Source of the DNA: Thalassolituus maritimus
GTDB taxonomy: Bacteria > Pseudomonadota > Gammaproteobacteria > Pseudomonadales > Oceanobacteraceae
Assembly (NCBI RefSeq): GCF_900156675.1
Contig: NZ_FTOH01000002.1
Location: forward strand, 186,001 to 250,000
Length of the DNA: 64,000 bases
Direction of reading: 5' to 3'
The first letter of the stretch is position 1, and the number at the start of each line of letters is the position of its first letter. Below the pieces are notes generated by a model. The model was not told where the DNA came from and ran no database searches. It worked only from the letters and a program-made list of their open reading frames with translations. The position numbers and the translations under genes are program-made. This document shows positions 52,450 to 63,607 of the stretch, piece after piece.

Positions 52450-53361
52450 TTAGCAGTCAGTCAGACTGAGCAATGATAAATCCGGCCGAATGAGCAGAGC
52501 GTTGACCGCCTGCGATCGCAGCCAGCCTTCGCCCGACGCCTCTTTCAGCATGGCAATCGTCGAAAGCGTGCCCGCCAGCAGGCAGGACGGCGCAACTACA
52601 GTCACAGATGCCCAGTAATCCACCGGAAACCCGCTTTCGGGATTAAGAAGGTGGCAATAGCGCTTGCCGTCTTTTTCGAAGAATCGCTCATAGTCGCCGC
52701 TACTGGCCATACCGCCCTGATATACGGGCAAAGATGCGATCGCGTTTTCCGTATCGCGCGGATGACGCACGCCCAACTGCCAGGGGCTGCCGTCCGCGTG
52801 CGGCCCGAGAACGCAAAGATCGCCACCCAGATCGACCACACCACGGTTAATGCCTGCCTGACGAGCAATCGCGGCTGCTGCATCGACTGCGTACTCTTTG
52901 CCGATACCGCCCAGATCCAGCTCCATATCAGGCGGCATCGTCAGGTGCGCCTCTGATATTTCAATGCGGCCGAGTCCGATCCGGGGGAGTAACCGCGCCA
53001 GCGTGACCTCTGAAGGTAACTGCCCTGCGCGGAAATCCCAGGCCTGACGCAGAACGCCAGAAGAAATATCAAACAGGCCATCACTCTGCTCAAAGCAGGC
53101 ACAGGCATAGTTAATCAACCAGAGCGTTTCGTTATCCAGGCCCACTTTCTGACCTGCGCGCTGGTTAATATCAGAAAGAACGCTGTCATCACGATAGCGA
53201 CTGTATTTCGCTTCGATACGACGGACTTCGCCTTCCATGGCGTTAATCACATCGGGCGATGTCCCTGCCGGCAAATGAAAACAACACGGCGACGCCATGG
53301 CACGAAACTCATGTGCCAGATAGGTCGCTCTGGCGTCAGAGTGTTTTGTACTCAATCCCAA
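52450..53361 (-). CDS. apbE: FAD:protein FMN transferase (ApbE family)
   Basis: ApbE covalently attaches FMN to Ser/Thr of target proteins, usually in the periplasm. The about 303-residue protein has EFRAMASPC near the N-terminus, DISSGVLRQAWDF, the LDLGGIGKEYAVDAAAAIA motif and ASSGDYERFF...YCHLLNPESGFP, all family hallmarks. There is no ATG before the conserved part: a TTG at 53361 or 53355 is the likely start, overlapping the DUF3570 gene by about 26 nt. No signal peptide is visible, which is unusual for ApbE and suggests a cytosolic enzyme or a mis-set start. Last gene of the operon. Confidence 0.88.
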   Translation of the reverse strand: MGLSTKHSDARATYLAHEFRAMASPCCFHLPAGTSPDVINAMEGEVRRIEAKYSRYRDDSVLSDINQRAGQKVGLDNETLWLINYACACFEQSDGLFDISSGVLRQAWDFRAGQLPSEVTLARLLPRIGLGRIEISEAHLTMPPDMELDLGGIGKEYAVDAAAAIARQAGINRGVVDLGGDLCVLGPHADGSPWQLGVRHPRDTENAIASLPVYQGGMASSGDYERFFEKDGKRYCHLLNPESGFPVDYWASVTVVAPSCLLAGTLSTIAMLKEASGEGWLRSQAVNALLIRPDLSLLSLTDC

Positions 53362-54508
53362 GGCTCACTATTGAATAGTCCACCAGCGCCGGTGCTTCGT
53401 CGTCAGGCGTCTGCAGCAACATCATATCTTCGGATGACATGTATTGCTGAATGTCGCCACTGATATGCCAGCGCCCATAACCCGCACTCGCTGCAAGACC
53501 GACGTTAAATGCGCCGTAGGAAGACAATCGATAATCCGAACTGCTGTACTCACCGGCTTCAGCGGGCGTCAGCCGATAAAACCTGGCCTGCGTCTGCCGG
53601 TAGTAGCGTAACGAAGGGGTCAGCTTAAAACTGAAGCGCCCGGCGTTCAGTGCCTGCGCCCAGCGGGTTTCCAGCGTGTTGGAATAAATGCCCCAGCTGT
53701 CGGTGTAAAAGCGATAATCCAGATGCAAAGCAGCACCGCCACCCACCGCAAAGTAGTGGCGCGCCCGCGCATCAATCAGATACTGAGAGCGCTCACCCGG
53801 GCGATGGTCGTCCAACTTATAAGGATCAGACAGATATCCGGAGAGTCGGGTGAACCCTGCACCAATCTGTAAAGCCAGATTCTTGTTGATCACCTGAGAG
53901 ACGCCCTCGTAGAGAGAAACGCTACGTTTCACCCGGCCATCGGCTCTGCGTCTGGCTTCTGACAGAAACTCATCGGTCGGTGCCAGTACGTCATACGACA
54001 AGGTCAGTGAGCCCATCAGAGTCGTGTGTTTATTCATCAGATTGAGTGAGCCTTCAGCACCAACGGCCACCGAGTCATAGTCATTCTCGGTCGAGATCGC
54101 CAGTAAGCCCCCCAGGGTGCCATCAACACTATCCTCAAAGTAGCGGGTAGGAGCGAGTTTCAGGTCAATCCGACGCTCATCAATACTGGCACCGCTCATC
54201 AGCACGGCACTCTGGCCTTCCGAGTTTTTGTAGGTCTGCATAGGCGATGCGCCTGACATCGTCTCGTACTGCAGCTCGCTGTTCAGATACCATTGACCGA
54301 CTAATGGCCGGCGATAGCCGAGCTGGTGAATATCAATACTGTACCGCGCCGTTTCGTCAGAAAAGGTTCGCGATTCAGGTATATCGGCTTCCTGATACTG
54401 GCTGAACCGATAGCTTACCGCCTGCTCTGTGGGTACTGGCTCGGCCTGTCCTGCAAGTGGCGCCGCTGCCGCTGCCAGCGCCGCCAGAGAATTCATGGTT
54501 TTCTTCAT
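53336..54508 (-). CDS. DUF3570 outer-membrane-type protein
   Basis: A 390-residue precursor with an Ala-rich signal peptide ending near LAGQAEP. It consists of long runs of alternating strand-like sequence with Arg/Tyr/Asp-rich turns and fits a large beta-barrel. It has two SGAS motifs (ETMSGASPMQ about residue 86 and LMSGASIDERR about 109), which resemble the S/T-G-A-S/T core of ApbE flavinylation sites. DUF3570 genes commonly pair with DUF4266 and apbE. It shares one base with the DUF4266 gene. The function is unknown. Confidence 0.85.
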   Translation of the reverse strand: MKKTMNSLAALAAAAAPLAGQAEPVPTEQAVSYRFSQYQEADIPESRTFSDETARYSIDIHQLGYRRPLVGQWYLNSELQYETMSGASPMQTYKNSEGQSAVLMSGASIDERRIDLKLAPTRYFEDSVDGTLGGLLAISTENDYDSVAVGAEGSLNLMNKHTTLMGSLTLSYDVLAPTDEFLSEARRRADGRVKRSVSLYEGVSQVINKNLALQIGAGFTRLSGYLSDPYKLDDHRPGERSQYLIDARARHYFAVGGGAALHLDYRFYTDSWGIYSNTLETRWAQALNAGRFSFKLTPSLRYYRQTQARFYRLTPAEAGEYSSSDYRLSSYGAFNVGLAASAGYGRWHISGDIQQYMSSEDMMLLQTPDDEAPALVDYSIVSLGIEYKTL

Positions 54509-54726
54509 CAGTTACAGCCGCAGCCGCCTCCTGCCGCTGCGCCACCGCCGGACGAGCCTTCCTTAGAATGGTGAATATGATTATCGAGCGAGGCTTTTAA
54601 CGGATCGATATCCCAGGCCATCACATCGTGCGCGAGGCGCCCGCGGTCCCAGGGCTCAACGGCAGAGCAGCCCGAAAGAACAGGCAACAACACAGACAGC
54701 AGGCCTGTAAACAACAGTGGCTTCAT
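54508..54726 (-). CDS. DUF4266 small lipoprotein
   Basis: A 72-residue precursor with lipobox LSGC (Cys19), then the family pattern SAVEPWDRGRLAHDVMAWD, DHIHHSKE (here DNHIHHSKE), and the Gly-rich end GGGCGCN. It is typically encoded next to DUF3570 and ApbE. The terminal Cys-Gly-Cys could coordinate a metal or form a disulfide. ATGA overlap with the DUF1501 gene. Confidence 0.87.
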   Translation of the reverse strand: MKPLLFTGLLSVLLPVLSGCSAVEPWDRGRLAHDVMAWDIDPLKASLDNHIHHSKEGSSGGGAAAGGGCGCN

Positions 54727-56075
54727 CCAAATATCCTGAAGTCAGGTACGTTAAGAGGGTAATTGTCAGCCAGCGAGGAGCTGCCCACGCCCATCAGATT
54801 TCGTATGGCACGGTTAACATGCTGCGGCGTGAGAATCTCGCCTGCGGCATCCGGCTGCCCCGTCGTAAGATTCACCGGCTGAGACAAAAACTCGGTGGTT
54901 GATGCACCAAACACGCGGCCGCCGCTCGATTCAGGTCGCAGTACCAACATACTGGTCACTGGCCAGTGATCCTTACCGTTACCTGAGTTGTAGTAGGGCG
55001 TTCGTCCAAAGTCAGAGCCGACAACAACCGTCGTGCGATCGGCAATACCGGCGTACTGCAAAGCCACCATCATAAAGTGAATGCCTTCGAGCAGGTCCCC
55101 GAGGTCTGGGTAGGCATTGGCGTCGTGATTTCCGTGCGTGTCAAAACCACCAAAGTTCAGGTTGGCACTGGCAGTCAGGCCCGCAGCCATTGAGGCAACG
55201 ACCACCTCGGCCTGGCTCTTGAGACTGTTGGCGCGGTTGGTGTTCCAGTGATCATCGCGAAGGACATTCGCCTGAAGATCTTCCAGACGCACCGTCAGCT
55301 CAGCGAGATTGCTGTCGGTATTACGGATACCAAACAACTGCTGTAGCTGTTTACGTCTGAGTGGCAGTGGCTCGCTATCCAGCTGACGCTGTATGCGTGC
55401 CCGCTGTGCTGCCTCAATATGGGAATACTGATCCACCCCACGGTTAGCAGTACGGAAGTGAAAGCCGCGGTCATCGTAGTAGCTGTTCGGGTCAGCAACT
55501 TCACTGACAAATCCGGCGCTACTGGCACGGGCTCGCGCAACCAGTGAGTCTGTAAAGTCATACCCACCGTTACTGATATAAGCCATCGGCAGCGTCGGTG
55601 CGACCGATGCCGCGAAATACGCGGCCAGGCTGGGGTAGCCGGTCTCATCGTTACCCGACCAGACGAAACGGTTGCCCGTATCGTGATTGTTGGTGCCAGT
55701 ATCGATGCCGTTAATCACCGTCAGCTTATCGCCATGCGTGGTGAAAAAATCGTCGAACTGATCATTGATGCGCTGACGCACCAGTTCATCATTAGAGACC
55801 CCTTCAGGAATGGCGCTCCACTGAATATTCCCGAAGGTTTTATTACTGTCGAGAGCAACCGAATTAGTTGAGCCTTCGTAGCGGTCTGAGCGATCCTGAT
55901 AGGCTTGATTAAGCCCCTTGGGGTCGCATATCGATGTCGGGTCCCAGCCACCGCTGGCATTCACCACAATCAGAAAACGATCAGGCGCCGCCGCCTGTAC
56001 TTTGGGTGCCCACAAAGGCGCCTGTGCAGTCAGGCCCGCGGCCGCCATCATCTGCAGAAAATTACGACGTTTCAT
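54723..56075 (-). CDS. DUF1501 protein (sulfatase-like fold, Tat-exported)
   Basis: A 450-residue precursor with a twin-arginine-type leader (MKRRNFLQMMAAAGL). The family motifs include NASGGWDPTSICDP, DGHGN-like FDTHGNHD, and VVVGSDFGRTPYYNSGNGKDHW, which is the DUF1501 metal-site segment of the alkaline-phosphatase superfamily. An AAGGAGG site precedes ATG 56075. DUF1501 proteins nearly always pair with DUF1592/DUF1588 cytochrome-like proteins, as here (11-nt gap). Substrate unknown. Confidence 0.9.
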   Translation of the reverse strand: MKRRNFLQMMAAAGLTAQAPLWAPKVQAAAPDRFLIVVNASGGWDPTSICDPKGLNQAYQDRSDRYEGSTNSVALDSNKTFGNIQWSAIPEGVSNDELVRQRINDQFDDFFTTHGDKLTVINGIDTGTNNHDTGNRFVWSGNDETGYPSLAAYFAASVAPTLPMAYISNGGYDFTDSLVARARASSAGFVSEVADPNSYYDDRGFHFRTANRGVDQYSHIEAAQRARIQRQLDSEPLPLRRKQLQQLFGIRNTDSNLAELTVRLEDLQANVLRDDHWNTNRANSLKSQAEVVVASMAAGLTASANLNFGGFDTHGNHDANAYPDLGDLLEGIHFMMVALQYAGIADRTTVVVGSDFGRTPYYNSGNGKDHWPVTSMLVLRPESSGGRVFGASTTEFLSQPVNLTTGQPDAAGEILTPQHVNRAIRNLMGVGSSSLADNYPLNVPDFRIFG

Positions 56076-56085
56076 AGCGGCCTCC

Positions 56086-58365
56086 TTATTCGTACACGAA
56101 ACGGTAGTCAGACATGAGATAGGTCAGCACCGCCATCCAGGCACGGATGCTGTAGTACTCATCCTGCTCAATGCGCTCTTCTGATGGCAGGTCGCCATCT
56201 GTGCGCCCGTCAGCCTGACGAAGCCAACGCGCCCGGCACTCCCACTCCAGCCAGTTACTCGGCTGAGGATCATACTGCTCCCGGTTGGCCAGCATGTTCT
56301 GACCCTCATTCAGTACCGCCAGGAAAAGATCGTAGGTTGCCTGTTCTTCAACACTTCCCGCACTGATGTCTTCACCCAGTAGCACCCAATGCAGATAGCG
56401 GATGTTTTCTTTGATGCGATCAACGGCTGAGGGGTTAGCTGCTCCCTCGAGGTCGAATGGCAGCGTCTCAATTTCTACATGCGGAAAGAGGCGACGTTGC
56501 GAAGACGCATTAAGAAAATCATACGCCGTTGAACGGCACGCCATCTCGGTCGCCATACGATTCTGAATCGCGATAATCAGGCCGCCCGGCTCACGAATCC
56601 GCTCTGTCACACTGTCCGAGTCCATACCACCGTACATAATGCGGTTATCTTCCCAGCGCAGCTCGTCCCAGCCAAAACCAAAGATCGCCTGCAACTTGGT
56701 CTGCATCTGTTCCGGACTGATGAACTGACTGGCACCAATATGATCGTTCACCGCCAGCTCTTCCGCATTGACGCTCGCGGCACGGTAGTAAGGGCTCATG
56801 ATCAAGGCTTTTACTGCGGCCTTGATATCCCAACCATCCGCGACCATGGCATCCGCCACACTATTGAGAATGGCGCGCTGACTGTTATACGCCAGCTTTT
56901 CATCGTCGGACGCATCAGCCGGCGGTGCGGGGAGCACCTCCTGGCCAATCATACCCTCATAGAGCGTGCGTACCGTGGCACGGGCAAATCTCGGATCGGC
57001 TGCAATCTCGCTGCCGAGCCATTGCAATAAAGTACGGAACTGGCCTTCTGACCCTGACAGTGGCGCCTGCTTACCGCCCAACCCCGGTGGCTCAATATCC
57101 GAGCCGTCCCAGTCATTAACAGAAGAGCTGCCCGTTACGATATATCGACCACGATCTGTCCAATGCTGGAATGAAGAAGACACGGGGTCCATAACCTGAT
57201 GGCAGGCGTAACACGCCGGATCGAGGAGAGTCGGGTTGCTGACACCAGAACCAATACCGTCCTCAGGGCGATCCCCCTCGATGGCCAGAATGTCGGTATC
57301 CAGGAAGTAATCGAACACGATACGCGCGCGGTGACGGTTTCTGTTGGTTCGCGTCGTCGGGTAGCGATTCAGAAACATGGGAGAGGTCAGAACACCGGCA
57401 TGAGGAATCCCCCCTAACTCGTATTCAAGCTGTTTGGTGACACGAGCAGGGCGGAAGTCACTCGGGTCATAATTAATCTGCACACCATTTTCATCACACA
57501 CGGGTTCAGCCAGCTGACGGAATTCGCCGGACTCAACCAGCTCTGCTTCATACACCTGCTGGCTGTACCAGTTCACCATCATGAAATCGGCAGTCATATA
57601 GAGGGTGTGAGGCAAATCATTCATCGCCGCATAACGGATAAGCTCCAGAGGTTCACGAGCCACGGAATCGTTGGTCACAGTACGCACACAGCGACGGATA
57701 CTGCTCTGTTCATCTCCAGCATATACATTGTCATACCACTTACGATTCGGGTAATCATCGCTGTCAAGCAGGTTGATGCCACCTTCATTCAGGTTGCTGG
57801 TGAGGTACTTATCGGTGAGGAGCTGCTCGTTGAAAAAGCTCATCAGGCTATCGTAGAAGCCGGGCTCCAGATGCATAGCATCCAACGAGGTACTGAGACC
57901 TGTATCCGCACTCTCCGCAACTTGAGCTAACTCAGTGCCAGTAGGCAAACGCCCCACCAACTGAAGTGATGCTTTGCGCAAAGTCAGTGCCGCAGACTGG
58001 TTTTCCACACCCTGAATGGTGGCCAGCGCATCCGCGAGATTCTGGCCATTGAAGGCATATAGAATGTATTCGGCGGTGTCCGAAGCACAATCATCGACGC
58101 ACGCCTCAACATCGCCAATGGGCATCGTACGGCTGATTTCATCCGTTAACACGGAAAAAGACGAGCAGGTTGCACAGCCAACGAGAGAGGGGCCGACAGA
58201 GGTACCGTTACCATCCAGCCCGTGACAGGACGCACACATCTGCTGATAGTGAGCATGCCCGGCGGCGTTGTAGCCATCATCGGCAAGTTCACCGCTGTAA
58301 TTTTTATCGCACCCGACCAGCCAGAGAATCGCCATCCCGACTGCCAGTAATTTTAGGAGATTCAT
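56086..58365 (-). CDS. c-type-cytochrome-like lipoprotein with DUF1592/DUF1588 regions
   Basis: A 759-residue lipoprotein precursor (lipobox LVGC). A single-heme domain with CASCHG comes right after the leader, and a second CxxCH, ACYACHQVMDP, in the DUF1588 region at mid-protein. The C-terminal half contains the FRTLLQWLG and IGQEVLPAP segments. It is probably periplasmic and redox-active. ATG 58365 follows AGGGT; upstream frame to 58608 is discarded because the leader and lipobox define the start. First gene of the five-gene operon. Confidence 0.87.
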   Translation of the reverse strand: MNLLKLLAVGMAILWLVGCDKNYSGELADDGYNAAGHAHYQQMCASCHGLDGNGTSVGPSLVGCATCSSFSVLTDEISRTMPIGDVEACVDDCASDTAEYILYAFNGQNLADALATIQGVENQSAALTLRKASLQLVGRLPTGTELAQVAESADTGLSTSLDAMHLEPGFYDSLMSFFNEQLLTDKYLTSNLNEGGINLLDSDDYPNRKWYDNVYAGDEQSSIRRCVRTVTNDSVAREPLELIRYAAMNDLPHTLYMTADFMMVNWYSQQVYEAELVESGEFRQLAEPVCDENGVQINYDPSDFRPARVTKQLEYELGGIPHAGVLTSPMFLNRYPTTRTNRNRHRARIVFDYFLDTDILAIEGDRPEDGIGSGVSNPTLLDPACYACHQVMDPVSSSFQHWTDRGRYIVTGSSSVNDWDGSDIEPPGLGGKQAPLSGSEGQFRTLLQWLGSEIAADPRFARATVRTLYEGMIGQEVLPAPPADASDDEKLAYNSQRAILNSVADAMVADGWDIKAAVKALIMSPYYRAASVNAEELAVNDHIGASQFISPEQMQTKLQAIFGFGWDELRWEDNRIMYGGMDSDSVTERIREPGGLIIAIQNRMATEMACRSTAYDFLNASSQRRLFPHVEIETLPFDLEGAANPSAVDRIKENIRYLHWVLLGEDISAGSVEEQATYDLFLAVLNEGQNMLANREQYDPQPSNWLEWECRARWLRQADGRTDGDLPSEERIEQDEYYSIRAWMAVLTYLMSDYRFVYE

Positions 58366-58642: not shown

Positions 58643-59794
58643 ATGTCAGCCCGTAGCCCCCTCTGGCCTCTAGTCGCCGCCGCCACCACCCTGATCGTCG
58701 TTCATGGGTTTGGTCGTTTTATCTATACCCCTTTGATTCCACTGTTAGTAAGTGATGGTTTACTTACTCTTCAGCAGGCGGCACAGCTGGCTACCTGGAA
58801 CTATGTCGGTTACCTCGCGGGCGCCATGGTCGCACTTTTTGCGTATCAGAGTGGTTGGGGCCGGAGCGCCCTGCTTACCGGCGTGCTCGGCAACGCAGTC
58901 ATTACGCTGCTGCAGGTGGGCGGCGATTACTTCCCGTATATGGCGGGCCTTCGCCTCTTCAACGGCATCACTAACGGTATTGTTTTTGTACTTGCGCCGG
59001 CACTGGTGCTGGAATGGCTGGCGGTACGCAACAAGGCGACGTTGAGTGGCCTCATGTACCTGGGTGTTGGCGCAGGCTTATTGCTCAGCAACCAGATCGT
59101 TGAAAGCACCGCTATCTGGCTGCAAGGCAACGACCGCTGGATACCCGCCGCGATGATCAGTATTCCGCTGGCGCTCTGGTCCGGCATTTACCTGTTCCGC
59201 CTCAGCTCAGGCGATGCACCTGTCAGCCGCGATGATCACTCTGCTTTATGGGATAAACAGAGTACTCCGTTATTTTTATCCTACTTTGGTGCGGGTCTGG
59301 GCTACATATTGCCGATGACCTTCCTGCCTGCGGTCGCGCAGGAATGGAGCATCAATGTCACACCCAGCCCCTGGCTGATCGCAGCGATTGCTTCAGTGCC
59401 GTCGATCTTCATCTGGAATTCTCTGGGCAACCGCCTGGGCGACCGTAACGCCCTGATCCTCAATTACGCAGTTCAGGCCGCGTCTATTGTGGCGATTTTC
59501 ATACTGCCGGCGAGTGAACTGGGCCTCTGGCTATGTGCCGCATTAATGGGGGGCAGCTTCCTCGGCGCCGTCTTCCTGACCCAACGACTGGCCCGTGCAA
59601 TGCACCCACATCAGGGGCCACGATTGAGCGCCGCCCTGATTGCACTTTACGGCGTGGCCCAGCTGCTCGGACCTATCGTTGCCGAGGCGGGGATTCATAT
59701 GGGGGCGACCTTGTCATCGACCTTTATCTGGGGCCTCGGCGCCTGTGTGTGGGCATTATTGCTTATGCTCAGAGTTCCGGTGCAGCCTCGCTAA
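58643..59794 (+). CDS. MFS transporter, YbfB/YjiJ family
   Basis: A 383-residue protein with about 12 transmembrane helices. The N-terminal VVHGFGRFIYTPLIPLL motif is characteristic of the YbfB/YjiJ family (MFS_4). The substrate is unknown. ATG 58643 has GAGGA at good spacing; the open frame starts at 58568. It is divergent from the cytochrome-like gene (277-bp gap). Its last 39 nt overlap the convergent hipB. Confidence 0.88.
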   Translation: MSARSPLWPLVAAATTLIVVHGFGRFIYTPLIPLLVSDGLLTLQQAAQLATWNYVGYLAGAMVALFAYQSGWGRSALLTGVLGNAVITLLQVGGDYFPYMAGLRLFNGITNGIVFVLAPALVLEWLAVRNKATLSGLMYLGVGAGLLLSNQIVESTAIWLQGNDRWIPAAMISIPLALWSGIYLFRLSSGDAPVSRDDHSALWDKQSTPLFLSYFGAGLGYILPMTFLPAVAQEWSINVTPSPWLIAAIASVPSIFIWNSLGNRLGDRNALILNYAVQAASIVAIFILPASELGLWLCAALMGGSFLGAVFLTQRLARAMHPHQGPRLSAALIALYGVAQLLGPIVAEAGIHMGATLSSTFIWGLGACVWALLLMLRVPVQPR

Positions 59795-60058
59795 CCCCAA
59801 CTGCAGCCCAAACAGTTTCAGGAGTCGATTAACCGTCTGAATCGTCGGATTGGCTTCATCGGACTCAATCGCAACAAGGGTACGCCTGGAAAGACCACAT
59901 AGCTTCGCGAATTCTGCTTGATTCTGCGTTGCAATATTGCGGCGTAGCACCCGTATTGCGCCGCCCAGCGACAATTCACCAGAACCAACCGAGGCTTCAA
60001 CCCAGGTCAGAACCTCTGTACGCGACATCGTTTTAAAATCGGGAATATTTTTTGTCAT
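59756..60058 (-). CDS. hipB: HipB-like XRE-family antitoxin/repressor
   Basis: A 100-residue protein with a helix-turn-helix at about 48-80 (QAEFAKLCGLSRRTLVAIES) and a LLKLFGLQLGL end, as in HipB proteins that neutralise HipA and repress their own operon. The N-terminal about 40 residues are an extra extension compared with short HipB. It is encoded after hipA (13-nt gap), the reverse of the E. coli hipBA order. Confidence 0.85.
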   Translation of the reverse strand: MTKNIPDFKTMSRTEVLTWVEASVGSGELSLGGAIRVLRRNIATQNQAEFAKLCGLSRRTLVAIESDEANPTIQTVNRLLKLFGLQLGLARLHRNSEHKQ

Positions 60059-60071
60059 GACAAAGAAGTTC

Positions 60072-61421
60072 TCATAGCAATCCCCAGCGCTTCAGGCGGT
60101 CAGGCATCGCCTTCAGATTGAGGCCGTGTCGTTCAGTGTTCATCACCTCTGCAGGCACTCCTGATTCACTGGCATACACAGGCAAATCGATGAGTCTTAA
60201 GGCAAAATCTCGCAAACCAGCCCATAATCGCGCTGCGTTGAGATTGGTTGCTGCGGCTGCTTCGTCACAGATTTCCCGCCAACGGAAATTACCACCCACT
60301 TCATTGTCCACATGCCAACGGCTGGTACGGGTAATACCTGCTTCATCCAGCACCATAGGCGCAAGGTCGTATACAGGGGCAAGACGGATCCCACCCTTAA
60401 GCCTCAAGACCGAAGTATTTCGTCCATGGTTATCACTGTTGCCCAAAACCACATTCAGCAGGTCCCTGCGCAGGTATTCCTGCACCATGGTCTCTACTTG
60501 ATCCGTCTGATCGTAAATATTCCACAGATGCGCAAGCTGCTTCAGGTAGGTCGAGTGCGCCACTGTCGCGCCCGGTTCTATTACGCCGGCGATAGAATAA
60601 AGAGATTCGACCGCATATCTTTCCATTCCATCATGGCCCAAAACCCGATCAAATCTTGGCATCCACAGGCTCGCTGTTTTGCTCTGAAGTCGGCCCGATT
60701 CAACATATAAATCCGACGAGATAGCATCGAATCCTAACCGTCCAGCCACTTGATAGTAAGCATGTTCGGTCTCCAGAATCAGGCGGTCGCTTTCCAGAGA
60801 ATTCCCCTGCCTTGAACTGCGGCGCGGGAATTTTACAAGAAAATGCTCTCGAGCCTGCTCATCCGGCAGTGAGCCATCGGGATAATAAAGACCGTCACTA
60901 GCGAGAGTCAGCTGGTATTTAGGCGCATCACCGCCGGCACCGGTAGCTCCACCCACCGCAGCTCCATGCGACCTGGCGTAATCAAGAAATTCTGTTGCCT
61001 GCTCAAGCACTTCAGACATAGGAAATCCGATCAGCTGAAAATCAGAAGTGTCGGTCACGCTTTCTTTAATACGCAGATTGCCGACAGGGGCGCGGGTACA
61101 GTTGGCTAATAACTGAAAATCATATCCGGGCTGCTGGATGTCCGGCAGGTTGAGCTGCTGCCCCCAATAACGGCGGGCGGCTCCCATAGGCATAATATCC
61201 AGCAGAAACGCGGGCCAATGGGATGTCTCATGCGGGAAGAAGTCGAGCGGAAAACGGGCGCTAACCAGTGCAGCAGGGTTTCCCTGAAATCGTGCAACAT
61301 ATCCGGCATCGTATTCCAACGTAACCGCACCATGACGGCCAGCCTCCGGATCACTAAAATAGAGTTCGCACGCATCCTGCCAGGCACCACTCAGATAGGT
61401 CTGAACTGTTAGTTGCGACAT
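60072..61421 (-). CDS. hipA: HipA-like Ser/Thr kinase toxin
   Basis: A 449-residue HipA-family protein. N-terminal barrel-like domain (VSARFPLDFFPHETSHWPAFLLDIMP) and kinase core with FLVKFPRRS (ATP-binding Lys), NVVLGNSDNHGRNTS (catalytic Asp and Asn) and LAPVYDLAPM (metal-binding Asp). The Gly-rich GGATGAGGDAPKYQL loop is conserved. HipA kinases phosphorylate aminoacyl-tRNA synthetases such as GltX in E. coli. The target here is not known. Stable as an addiction module with hipB. Confidence 0.9.
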   Translation of the reverse strand: MSQLTVQTYLSGAWQDACELYFSDPEAGRHGAVTLEYDAGYVARFQGNPAALVSARFPLDFFPHETSHWPAFLLDIMPMGAARRYWGQQLNLPDIQQPGYDFQLLANCTRAPVGNLRIKESVTDTSDFQLIGFPMSEVLEQATEFLDYARSHGAAVGGATGAGGDAPKYQLTLASDGLYYPDGSLPDEQAREHFLVKFPRRSSRQGNSLESDRLILETEHAYYQVAGRLGFDAISSDLYVESGRLQSKTASLWMPRFDRVLGHDGMERYAVESLYSIAGVIEPGATVAHSTYLKQLAHLWNIYDQTDQVETMVQEYLRRDLLNVVLGNSDNHGRNTSVLRLKGGIRLAPVYDLAPMVLDEAGITRTSRWHVDNEVGGNFRWREICDEAAAATNLNAARLWAGLRDFALRLIDLPVYASESGVPAEVMNTERHGLNLKAMPDRLKRWGLL

Positions 61422-61708: not shown

Positions 61709-63607
61709 TCAGGCGCTCATTTTGCCTGCGAGATTACGCTTCTTCAGATGAATCAGAATCTGGCTGATGGCTGCAGGCGTAATGCCCGAGATACGTGATG
61801 CCACACCCAACGTAGCGGGGCGCACGGTCGCCAGCTTCTGCTTCACTTCGTTCGAGAGACCGCCAATGGCTTCATAGTCGAGGTCTTCTGGCAGCAGGGT
61901 GTTTTCGTAGCGACGCAGCTGCTCGATTTCTTCCATCTGTCGGTTGATATAGCCGTCGTATTTGGCCTGAATCTCAACCTGTTCTGCGACCTGAGGGTCA
62001 GCAACGGCGTCACCCTTGAGCGGCGCGACCTGTGAGTAAGTCAGACCCGGGCGCTTGAGCAGGTCATGCAGGTTATATTCGCGGGTGATGCCCGCTTCGC
62101 CCATGCCTTCCAGCGCGATCGCCTCTTCTGTTTTGGGCTGAACCCAGGTGGTTTTTAAACGCTGAGCCTCGGTTTCGATGGCTTCACGCTTGGCAGTGAA
62201 CGCCGCCCAGCGCTCATCATTCACAAGACCGAGATCACGGCCGATTTCGGTTAGACGCAGATCCGCATTATCTTCACGCAGCACCAGTCGATATTCAGCA
62301 CGGGAGGTGAACATGCGATACGGCTCTTTGGTGCCCATGGTGATCAGGTCGTCGACCAAAACACCGATGTAAGACTGGTCACGACGCGGTACCCAGGCGT
62401 CTTTCTCGAGCGCGCGCAGGGCCGCATTAGCACCGGCCAGCAAGCCTTGAGCACCGGCCTCTTCATAACCCGTGGTGCCGTTAATCTGGCCCGCAAAATA
62501 GAGGTTATTCACAAACTTGGTTTCAAGGCTGTGTTTGAGATCCTGAGGGTCGAAATAATCATATTCGATGGCATAACCCGGACGGGTAATGTGCGCATTC
62601 TCGAAGCCCGCCATGCTGTGGATAAGATCCAACTGCACATCAAAGGGCAATGACGTCGAAATACCGTTCGGGTACAGCTCGTTGCTGTTCAGGCCTTCGG
62701 GCTCAACAAAAATCTGATGACTGGTTTTATCCGCAAAGCGCGTGACCTTATCTTCAATCGACGGGCAGTAACGCGGGCCAACGCCTTCAATCACGCCCGC
62801 AAACATAGGCGAACGGTCCAGATTAGCGCGGATAATGTCGTGGGTACGCTCGTTGGTGTGGGTGATGTAGCAGCTCACCTGCTCTGGGTGTTCATCCACA
62901 GAGCCCATAAAAGACATCACTGGCAGCGGTGTATCGCCCGGCTGCTCCTGCATCACAGAGAAATCCACAGAACGACGATCAATACGCGCAGGCGTGCCGG
63001 TTTTCAGGCGACCCACATTAAACGGCATTTCACGCAGACGTTTTGCCAGCGCAATCGCGGGCGGATCACCGGCACGGCCACCGGAGTGGTTTTCCATACC
63101 AATGTGGATAAGTCCGCCTAAGAAAGTACCCGCGGTCAGAACAACGCTGGTCGCATGAATACGCATATTGGTATTGGTGACCACACCCGCCACGGTAGAA
63201 CCCACACCGTCACCCTGCATAATCAGGTCGTCACAGGCGGCCTGAAAGATATCAAGGTTCGGCTGGTTTTCCACAATGTGGCGGATGGCGCTGCGATACA
63301 GTGCGCGGTCAGCCTGGGCACGAGTAGCACGCACGGCCGGGCCTTTGCGGCTGTTAAGTGTACGGAACTGAATACCGGCTTTGTCGGTAGCACGCGCCAT
63401 GGCACCGCCCAGTGCATCAATTTCTTTCACCAGGTGGCTTTTGCCGATGCCGCCAATGGCTGGGTTGCAGGACATCACGCCCACGGTGTCTGTGTTATGC
63501 GTCAGCAGCAGTGTCTTCGCGCCGGTACGGGCCGACGCCAGCGCCGCCTCGGTTCCGGCGTGTCCACCACCAACAACAATCACGTCATAACGAACGGGAT
63601 AATCCAC
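61709..63607 (-). CDS. mnmG: tRNA uridine 5-carboxymethylaminomethyl modification enzyme MnmG
   Basis: MnmG (GidA) with MnmE makes cmnm5U34 in tRNAs using FAD, NADH and methylene-THF. The 632-residue protein has the FAD motif [19 protein letters not shown], the [20 protein letters not shown] signature, [14 protein letters not shown] and the C-terminal [21 protein letters not shown] 63607 with AGGTGA is the start. Directly beside oriC, as in many bacteria. Confidence 0.97.

Follow-up and report, generated by a model that had tools for sequence, protein, structure and literature searches.

We analysed a window of Thalassolituus maritimus DNA (by the window we mean the whole stretch of 64,000 nucleotides), in which five co-oriented reading frames on the minus strand overlap or almost touch. 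They encode a two-heme lipoprotein (CYT), a DUF1501 protein, a DUF4266 lipoprotein, a DUF3570 protein and ApbE, a flavin mononucleotide (FMN) transferase. An earlier reading of the letters alone (the original prediction) had described them as an operon merging two gene sets, and all five reading frames are indeed present at 52450-58365. The proteins and their motifs are:

56086..58365, minus strand: CYT, two-heme lipoprotein, 759 residues, with lipobox Cys19, two CxxCH motifs and a Pfam cytochrome c domain
58222..58236, minus strand: CYT heme-attachment motif 1, CASCH, residues 44-48; C44, C47 and H48 invariant in the alignment
57199..57213, minus strand: CYT heme-attachment motif 2, CYACH, residues 385-389; C385, C388 and H389 invariant in the alignment
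54723..56075, minus strand: DUF1501 protein, 450 residues, twin-arginine signal, predicted alkaline-phosphatase-superfamily fold
54508..54726, minus strand: DUF4266 lipoprotein, 72 residues, Gly-rich tail ending in GGGCGCN
54511..54522, minus strand: C-terminal CGCN (CxC) of DUF4266
53336..54508, minus strand: DUF3570 protein, 390 residues, predicted 16-strand outer-membrane beta-barrel of an ApbE substrate family (PMC8238504)
54245..54256, minus strand: DUF3570 flavinylation motif 1, SGAS, residues 85-88, FMN expected on Ser88
54185..54196, minus strand: DUF3570 flavinylation motif 2, SGAS, residues 105-108, FMN expected on Ser108
52450..53361, minus strand: ApbE, 303 residues, TTG start, without a leader peptide; Ser221, His237, Gly264

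The intergenic spacings from CYT through DUF1501, DUF4266 and DUF3570 to ApbE are 10, -4, -1 and -26 bases, and they are identical in the near-identical locus L094. Four of the family labels were confirmed by Pfam matches above the cut-off, with 236 bits for ApbE (PF02424), 169 for DUF3570, 77 for DUF4266 and 84 for DUF1501 (cut-off 27); an NCBIfam scan of the operon proteins gave no match above its cut-off. Promoter-like and terminator-like sites were about as numerous as in shuffled sequence.

The pairing of CYT and DUF1501 with the flavin genes is not a local accident. Of 55 genomes searched, 34 of which belong to the window's family, 21 encode a strong relative of the window DUF1501 (E at most 5e-92), namely 20 of the family and G049. 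In all 21, genes for DUF4266 and DUF3570 lie no more than about 3 kb from a DUF1501 gene of this kind (in G003 this is true of a second copy). A scan of public genomes reported 436 matching stretches. Among the best 79 loci of the window DUF1501 subtype, CYT lies beside DUF1501 in 78, the 79th being interrupted by a contig end; a same-strand DUF3570 gene was found within 6.5 kb in 28 of these loci and not in 34, and 17 were ended by the contig. Of the 28 linked loci, nineteen cluster with the window's family, where near relatives have record names such as Thalassolituus, Oleibacter, Oleispira, Bacterioplanes and Oceanobacter, and where a metagenome assembly named Oleibacter marinus gave the nearest row (99% identity). 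The other nine lie outside this group, two of them in Campylobacterota. By record name they comprise Methylococcales (L114), Oleiphilaceae (L126), Hahellaceae (L143) and Sulfurimonas (L161, L164), together with L128, L133 (the G049 contig), L139 and L141 (Thiotrichaceae). A tree of 91 DUF1501 proteins was built by a quick method and has several long branches, some of them meeting. On it, 4 changes suffice for the linked state (at least 2 forced), compared with a mean of 27.7 after shuffling, and none of 500 shuffles was as low. A second DUF1501 clade, from three family genomes, stands beside DUF3570 genes of the opposite orientation (L057-L059).

The claim that the two sets usually travel separately holds in part. 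The 34 unlinked loci have no same-strand DUF3570 with at least 4 kb downstream visible, and none of 20 DUF3570 clusters fetched from across the phylum matches the DUF1501 or the CYT profile; against the claim, 28 of the 79 loci are linked on the same strand and the combination is kept in 20 of the 34 family genomes. The co-occurrence check that had been proposed for these families, once run, found the combined set in the family and in distant assemblies, and the halves also on their own. A draw of 378 phylum genomes contained DUF3570 in 29 and matches to the DUF1501 profile in seven, of which six were partial (E 1e-11 to 1e-14) and the only strong one was in the window's own genome. Solo cytochrome-DUF1501 pairs are present in Myxococcota and Sorangium.

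The usual linked operon has six genes rather than five, as a TlpA-like thioredoxin gene (Redoxin family) is encoded between DUF1501 and DUF4266 in 22 of the 28 linked loci, with WCGPC in most of the rows read. It is missing from the window operon. Loss of the gene was considered and rejected, since the same genome carries it unlinked at G000:C15:117-581 (57% identity). Its neighbour there is the same GGDEF protein gene as in G001, G002, G005 and G008 (the position in G002 and G005 was taken from match coordinates), and in four of these five genomes a short-chain dehydrogenase gene, again the same one, also adjoins it, the window genome's contig ending before the dehydrogenase. In ancestral-type loci of other family members the whole operon is flanked by relatives of the same two genes, the GGDEF relative in 8 of 10 and the dehydrogenase relative in 9 of 10. 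The operon had been placed between rsmG and mnmG, which is right as a location: RsmG (GidB) adjoins ApbE. MnmG (GidA, 61709-63607) is not adjacent, with a major facilitator superfamily (MFS) gene and a HipAB-like pair intervening. Of 16 genomes tested, the operon ApbE adjoins rsmG in six and lies elsewhere in ten; in those six the five genes are found together at rsmG, one of the six (G003) being without DUF4266, and five of the six retain the thioredoxin at the old site. In the sixth, G003, the best thioredoxin match falls within its second operon, a copy that has CYT, DUF1501, thioredoxin, DUF4266 and DUF3570 and no ApbE; the two G003 copies are those of records L098 and L110. With the five genes at rsmG and the thioredoxin and its flanks at the old site, the five apparently moved jointly and the thioredoxin stayed at the ancestral locus, which explains the odd location of the window operon and points to the five as one functional unit, the thioredoxin being retained in trans.

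These data also bear on whether two unrelated operons simply lie side by side here, without functional coupling. Such a reading would fit the 34 of 79 loci in which DUF1501 occurs without DUF3570, and the lack of any DUF1501 profile match in the 20 fetched phylum clusters. We nevertheless regard it as improbable, as the linked state is strongly clustered on the tree yet spans two phyla, in 6 of 16 genomes the genes occupy a new site side by side, the spacings are mostly of a few bases, linkage goes with a double flavin site (see below), and the second DUF1501 clade also stands beside DUF3570, in the opposite orientation. Chance neighbourhood is likewise weakened by the tree, the recurrence and the common new site.

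Clusters of ApbE, DUF3570, thioredoxin and DUF4266, some with DsbD, were described by Meheust et al. (2021; PMC8238504). The window and its relatives resemble them in having ApbE, a DUF3570 with motifs, a DUF4266 with C-terminal CxC and, in the relatives, the thioredoxin; the window differs from the clusters in that paper in its upstream cytochrome and DUF1501 and in its unlinked thioredoxin. Since the thioredoxin is not universal in the published clusters, its absence from the window operon does not exclude membership, and judged by its sequences the flavin half is a member of this known kind. The words DUF1501 and barrel do not appear in the main text of PMC8238504. A Pfam scan of ten genes, the five of the operon and five neighbours, found no DsbD.

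In Chlorobium luteolum, DUF3570 is flavinylated by its own ApbE, and abolishing this required changing both [ST]GA[ST] motifs (PMC8238504). The window DUF3570 has exactly two such motifs and the other four operon proteins have none; two or more arise in 0.18% of shuffles. FMN on the cytochrome or on DUF1501 was rejected, as neither carries the motif. The original prediction of an envelope redox system needing flavinylation is well supported by these two sites in a protein of an ApbE-flavinylated family. It had overlooked that the flavin half was already described, that the recurring operon usually has six genes, that the thioredoxin is encoded elsewhere in the genome, that the motif is confined to DUF3570 and that ApbE has no export signal.

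Paired sites 19-20 residues apart were found in 33 of 35 unique DUF1501-linked DUF3570s, in 3 of 3 with DUF1501 on the opposite strand, and in 1 of 12 others. That single one is L056, whose neighbouring DUF1501 is broken, and among the 12 is L064, which ends at a contig edge ahead of the sites. The DUF3570s of the 20 phylum clusters without DUF1501, which have DUF4266 in 20, thioredoxin in 18 and ApbE in 17 within the fetched stretch, carry one strict motif in 14, two in 3 and none in 3. Two motifs are described for DUF3570 in PMC8238504, and our strict search may overlook a looser second site in DUF3570s without DUF1501. The pair of flavin sites is typical of the DUF1501-linked type and not exclusive to it. 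The tail of DUF4266 is also conserved, ending in GGCGCN in 53 of 58 frames (duplicates included). In L070 (6857-8035, G014:C5) we observed a DUF3570 without a strict motif, perhaps a degenerate or repurposed barrel, and no ApbE or DUF1501 was recognised in that stretch.

An AlphaFold2 model of DUF3570 from 23 aligned rows shows sixteen long strands, with a predicted local distance difference test score (pLDDT) of 88.3. The gaps that follow even-numbered strands all measure 2-5 residues; of the eight gaps after odd-numbered strands, six are of 14-25 residues and two of 2 and 4. The best Foldseek matches of the model in the PDB were outer-membrane barrels (BcsC, a polysaccharide secretin, OmpG and PelB; E 3e-9 downwards), with modest template modelling (TM) scores by query of at most 0.57, and a sequence search found no solved relative. 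Outer-membrane barrels usually keep their N and C termini in the periplasm. Given periplasmic termini, outward loop 2 is predicted to have one of the two SGAS motifs at each foot.

Flavins at an outward loop, as predicted here, would also suit an outer-membrane reductase of ferric iron or other metals, in which surface flavins reduce the metal for uptake and the heme and thiol parts supply the electrons, and 25 DUF3570-type clusters with the iron transporter VIT1 were reported by Meheust et al. (PMC8238504). No iron-transport family was found, however, in a scan of the neighbours of the window operon (RsmG, MFS, HipAB-like and MnmG), and we consider a metal reductase unlikely.

The conserved residues of Vibrio cholerae ApbE include Ser241, His257 and Asp285 according to a review (PMC12052999). 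The window ApbE keeps the Ser and His (Ser221, His237) and has Gly264 for the Asp of this conserved set, and no hydrophobic stretch is found from its first possible start to the domain. We compared 123 unique ApbEs, extending every frame upstream to its earliest possible start behind a stop, which excludes a missed in-frame leader; a leader was scored as a 12-residue mean hydropathy of at least 1.9 ahead of the domain, a simple threshold and not a trained predictor. Ser and His are kept in all 123. Among 66 linked to DUF3570, 55 have no leader and Gly for Asp, 9 have both leader and Asp, and 2 are leaderless with Asp, and for the 30 near both DUF3570 and DUF1501 the counts are 0 with a leader and 28 with Gly. 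Away from DUF3570, 55 of 57 have leader and Asp and two, in G049 and G054, have neither. In both genomes a DUF3570 gene lies with DUF1501, the latter broken in G054, and no ApbE was recognised beside this locus; their leaderless Gly ApbEs may be the unlinked partners of these loci. The first sample had given 50 of 56 against 27 of 27, the controls being 27 of the 30 best-scoring ApbEs, and was then enlarged by 40 more stretches and two loci. On the enlarged sample (55/66 against 55/57) we rejected a sharp division between ApbEs linked to DUF3570 and the rest, and likewise the idea that the leaderless ApbE is peculiar to DUF1501-linked operons, as it was also found in 27 of 36 unique ApbEs of DUF3570 clusters without DUF1501. 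A second set of DUF4266, DUF3570, thioredoxin and ApbE genes, arranged in another order, is present in the window genome (G000:C8:99210-101983, L060), with an ApbE that has leader and Asp and a DUF3570 with one strict motif.

As the DUF3570-linked ApbEs mostly have neither export signal nor Asp, attachment of the flavin probably precedes export. Given that the sites are predicted to face outward in the folded barrel, it is simplest to assume that a cytoplasmic enzyme loads them ahead of export. That the leaderless class acts in the cytoplasm is what we infer from this. Cytosolic ApbEs have been reported, such as the Klebsiella pneumoniae ApbE for fumarate reductase, which resembles ours in having no signal peptide (PMC12052999); its substrate is soluble and cytosolic, whereas the window ApbE, which has Gly in place of Asp, would act on an exported barrel. 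In the C. luteolum test the proteins were apparently truncated to remove their signal peptides, and flavinylated DUF3570 came from the insoluble pellet (PMC8238504), in line with loading before export.

The cytochrome c domain of CYT scores 31.2 in Pfam (cut-off 27). PSCyt3/DUF1588 (26.8, cut-off 27) and PSD1/DUF1553 (27.6, cut-off 28.5) both remain slightly below threshold. The DUF1592 label given to CYT was not borne out, as no PSD4/DUF1592 match was obtained at E<=0.1; the homologue in L164 does match PSD4/DUF1592 (29.3, cut-off 23.3). Residues 35-107 match the X183 structure 8q1v of T. turnerae (E 7e-16). The C-terminal region, with the second CxxCH at 385 and the sub-threshold PSCyt3/PSD1 similarity, is possibly an X132 domain, a likeness by position only. 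PSCyt/PSD cytochromes with DUF1501 partners occur in planctomycetes and others, and the window likewise has a cytochrome-like protein followed by a DUF1501 protein; its CYT differs in bordering the PSCyt3 and PSD1 cut-offs and in being linked to flavin genes. Covalently bound FMN usually has lower potentials than the X183 domains of T. turnerae, which suggests that electrons flow from flavin to heme. For these X183 domains, +11 to +124 mV has been reported (PMC10916295).

Like CYT, Cbp2D of Cellvibrio japonicus and TERTU_2913 of Teredinibacter (PMC10916295, PMC12542752) carry an X183-like cytochrome c at the N terminus and a CxxCH in the C-terminal region. Such X183/X132 proteins have been proposed to supply electrons to lytic polysaccharide monooxygenases (LPMOs), a role that the match of the N-terminal domain to 8q1v would allow for CYT. 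Unlike them, CYT is a lipoprotein without a Pfam match to a carbohydrate-binding module and is paired with DUF1501; these modules are found in Cbp2D and TERTU_3803, and TERTU_2913 is also without them (PMC10916295). LPMOs are nearly absent, LPMO_10 being found in one of the 34 family genomes (G014, not the window's) and in 4 of all 55, and in T. turnerae the X183 domains failed to feed its LPMO (PMC10916295). We consider this role of the operon very improbable.

The function of DUF1501 is the least known part of the operon. Its structure model (pLDDT 76.5) has an alkaline-phosphatase-superfamily fold, with Z 16.5 to a nucleotide pyrophosphatase/phosphodiesterase and about 15-16 to many sulfatases; Foldseek TM scores by query are modest (at most 0.40). 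A sequence search found no solved relative, the lone weak row being a 28-residue chain named CueO. Candidates for the metal ligands and nucleophile are D45, T128, D312, H314, D355 and H370, which vary little or not at all across 19 aligned rows. Its single Cys, Cys50, is invariant in the same rows, and CYT has 13 Cys, eight beyond the lipobox Cys and the four heme Cys. These Cys residues, together with WCGPC of the TlpA-like thioredoxin and the CxC tail of DUF4266, would fit a periplasmic thiol quality control, in which DUF3570, DUF4266 and thioredoxin repair disulfides of DUF1501 or the cytochrome with no outward electron transfer. For such a role two flavins at an outward loop would be superfluous, and the supposed clients are absent from the 20 fetched phylum DUF3570 clusters; we find it rather improbable.

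Our preferred reading, held tentatively and with slightly less than even confidence, is that the operon encodes a conserved envelope relay of electrons between thiols, flavins and hemes. ApbE without an export signal would attach two FMN to the unexported DUF3570 chain in the cytoplasm, and the flavinylated protein would then leave the cytoplasm and form a 16-strand barrel in the outer membrane, its two flavins sitting at the foot of a single outward-facing loop. The periplasmic TlpA-like thioredoxin and the Cys-x-Cys tail of DUF4266 would hand reducing equivalents to the flavins. The two-heme lipoprotein would exchange electrons with the flavins, most likely from flavin to heme, and cooperate with the Tat (twin-arginine)-exported DUF1501, a protein with the predicted alkaline-phosphatase-superfamily fold. 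The gene set with its overlaps and motifs, its recurrence, the relocation that left the thioredoxin behind and the missing leader and Asp of ApbE are computed results; the folds of DUF3570 and DUF1501 and the outward position of the loop are model predictions; the place and time of flavinylation, the electron direction, the acceptor and the role of DUF1501 are what we infer.

Several observations weigh against the relay. To our knowledge no ApbE lacking the Asp has been assayed. Nine of the 66 DUF3570-linked ApbEs, including the second copy in the window's own genome, keep leader and Asp, and the two that are leaderless with Asp are those of the Sulfurimonas linked operons, whose DUF3570s also are without the site pair (0 and 1 motif). 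Some linked operons have no ApbE, the rsmG-site copy of G003 has no DUF4266, and the two halves also occur apart: the 34 unlinked loci have no same-strand DUF3570, and the family loci L061-L063, which encode CYT and DUF1501, have no DUF3570. The topology of DUF3570 relies on a predicted model and on the usual rule for outer-membrane proteins. The C. luteolum ApbE active on DUF3570 was obtained by a 'similar cloning strategy' to that of a signal-peptide-truncated ApbE (PMC8238504), wording which suggests that it may have a signal peptide.

A bolder form of the relay, which we hold to be doubtful, is that most DUF3570 systems rely on a distinct class of ApbE without the catalytic Asp, which flavinylates the barrel in the cytoplasm ahead of export, and that, with the heme protein and DUF1501, the barrel forms a compact thiol-flavin-heme conduit through the outer membrane. 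If so, a pair of flavins would stand on the cell surface, beyond the reach of periplasmic enzymes, and the conduit would be an alternative to multiheme porin-cytochrome complexes. An ApbE that is active in the cytoplasm without leader and Asp would mean that covalent flavins can be exported on unfolded barrels, and export of preloaded flavins would alter how extracytosolic flavoproteins are predicted. The recurring operon ties together three families to which no function is assigned (DUF1501, DUF3570, DUF4266) and a poorly understood type of cytochrome, and it offers a concrete hypothesis for how electrons may cross the outer membrane via covalent flavins. The merged operon, its relocation, the outward flavin pair and the Asp-less leaderless ApbE class are undescribed in the literature searched, which was mostly titles and the starts of abstracts and excludes subscription journals, preprints and supplements; the supplementary cluster table of Meheust et al. 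may well contain such merged loci.

A few further features were observed. The Sulfurimonas linked operons have an extra gene of 186-195 residues after DUF1501 (L161 2623-3183, L164 10340-10927), one with a sub-threshold paired-CxxCH match and the other with no Pfam match. Two contigs labelled as Klebsiella pneumoniae metagenome assemblies (L113, L171) carry the cytochrome-DUF1501 pair; they group with environmental gammaproteobacteria on the tree and are probably mislabelled bins. A search for tRNA genes in the window found none. Between the MFS gene and mnmG, at 59756-61421 of the window, lie a helix-turn-helix gene in the HipB-like place and a HipA-like gene. Five solo cytochrome-DUF1501 pairs (L115, L118, L121, L125, L127) share an upstream string of small genes of about 150-206 residues, and in L115 an M28 peptidase gene and a 5'-nucleotidase-like gene are found downstream.

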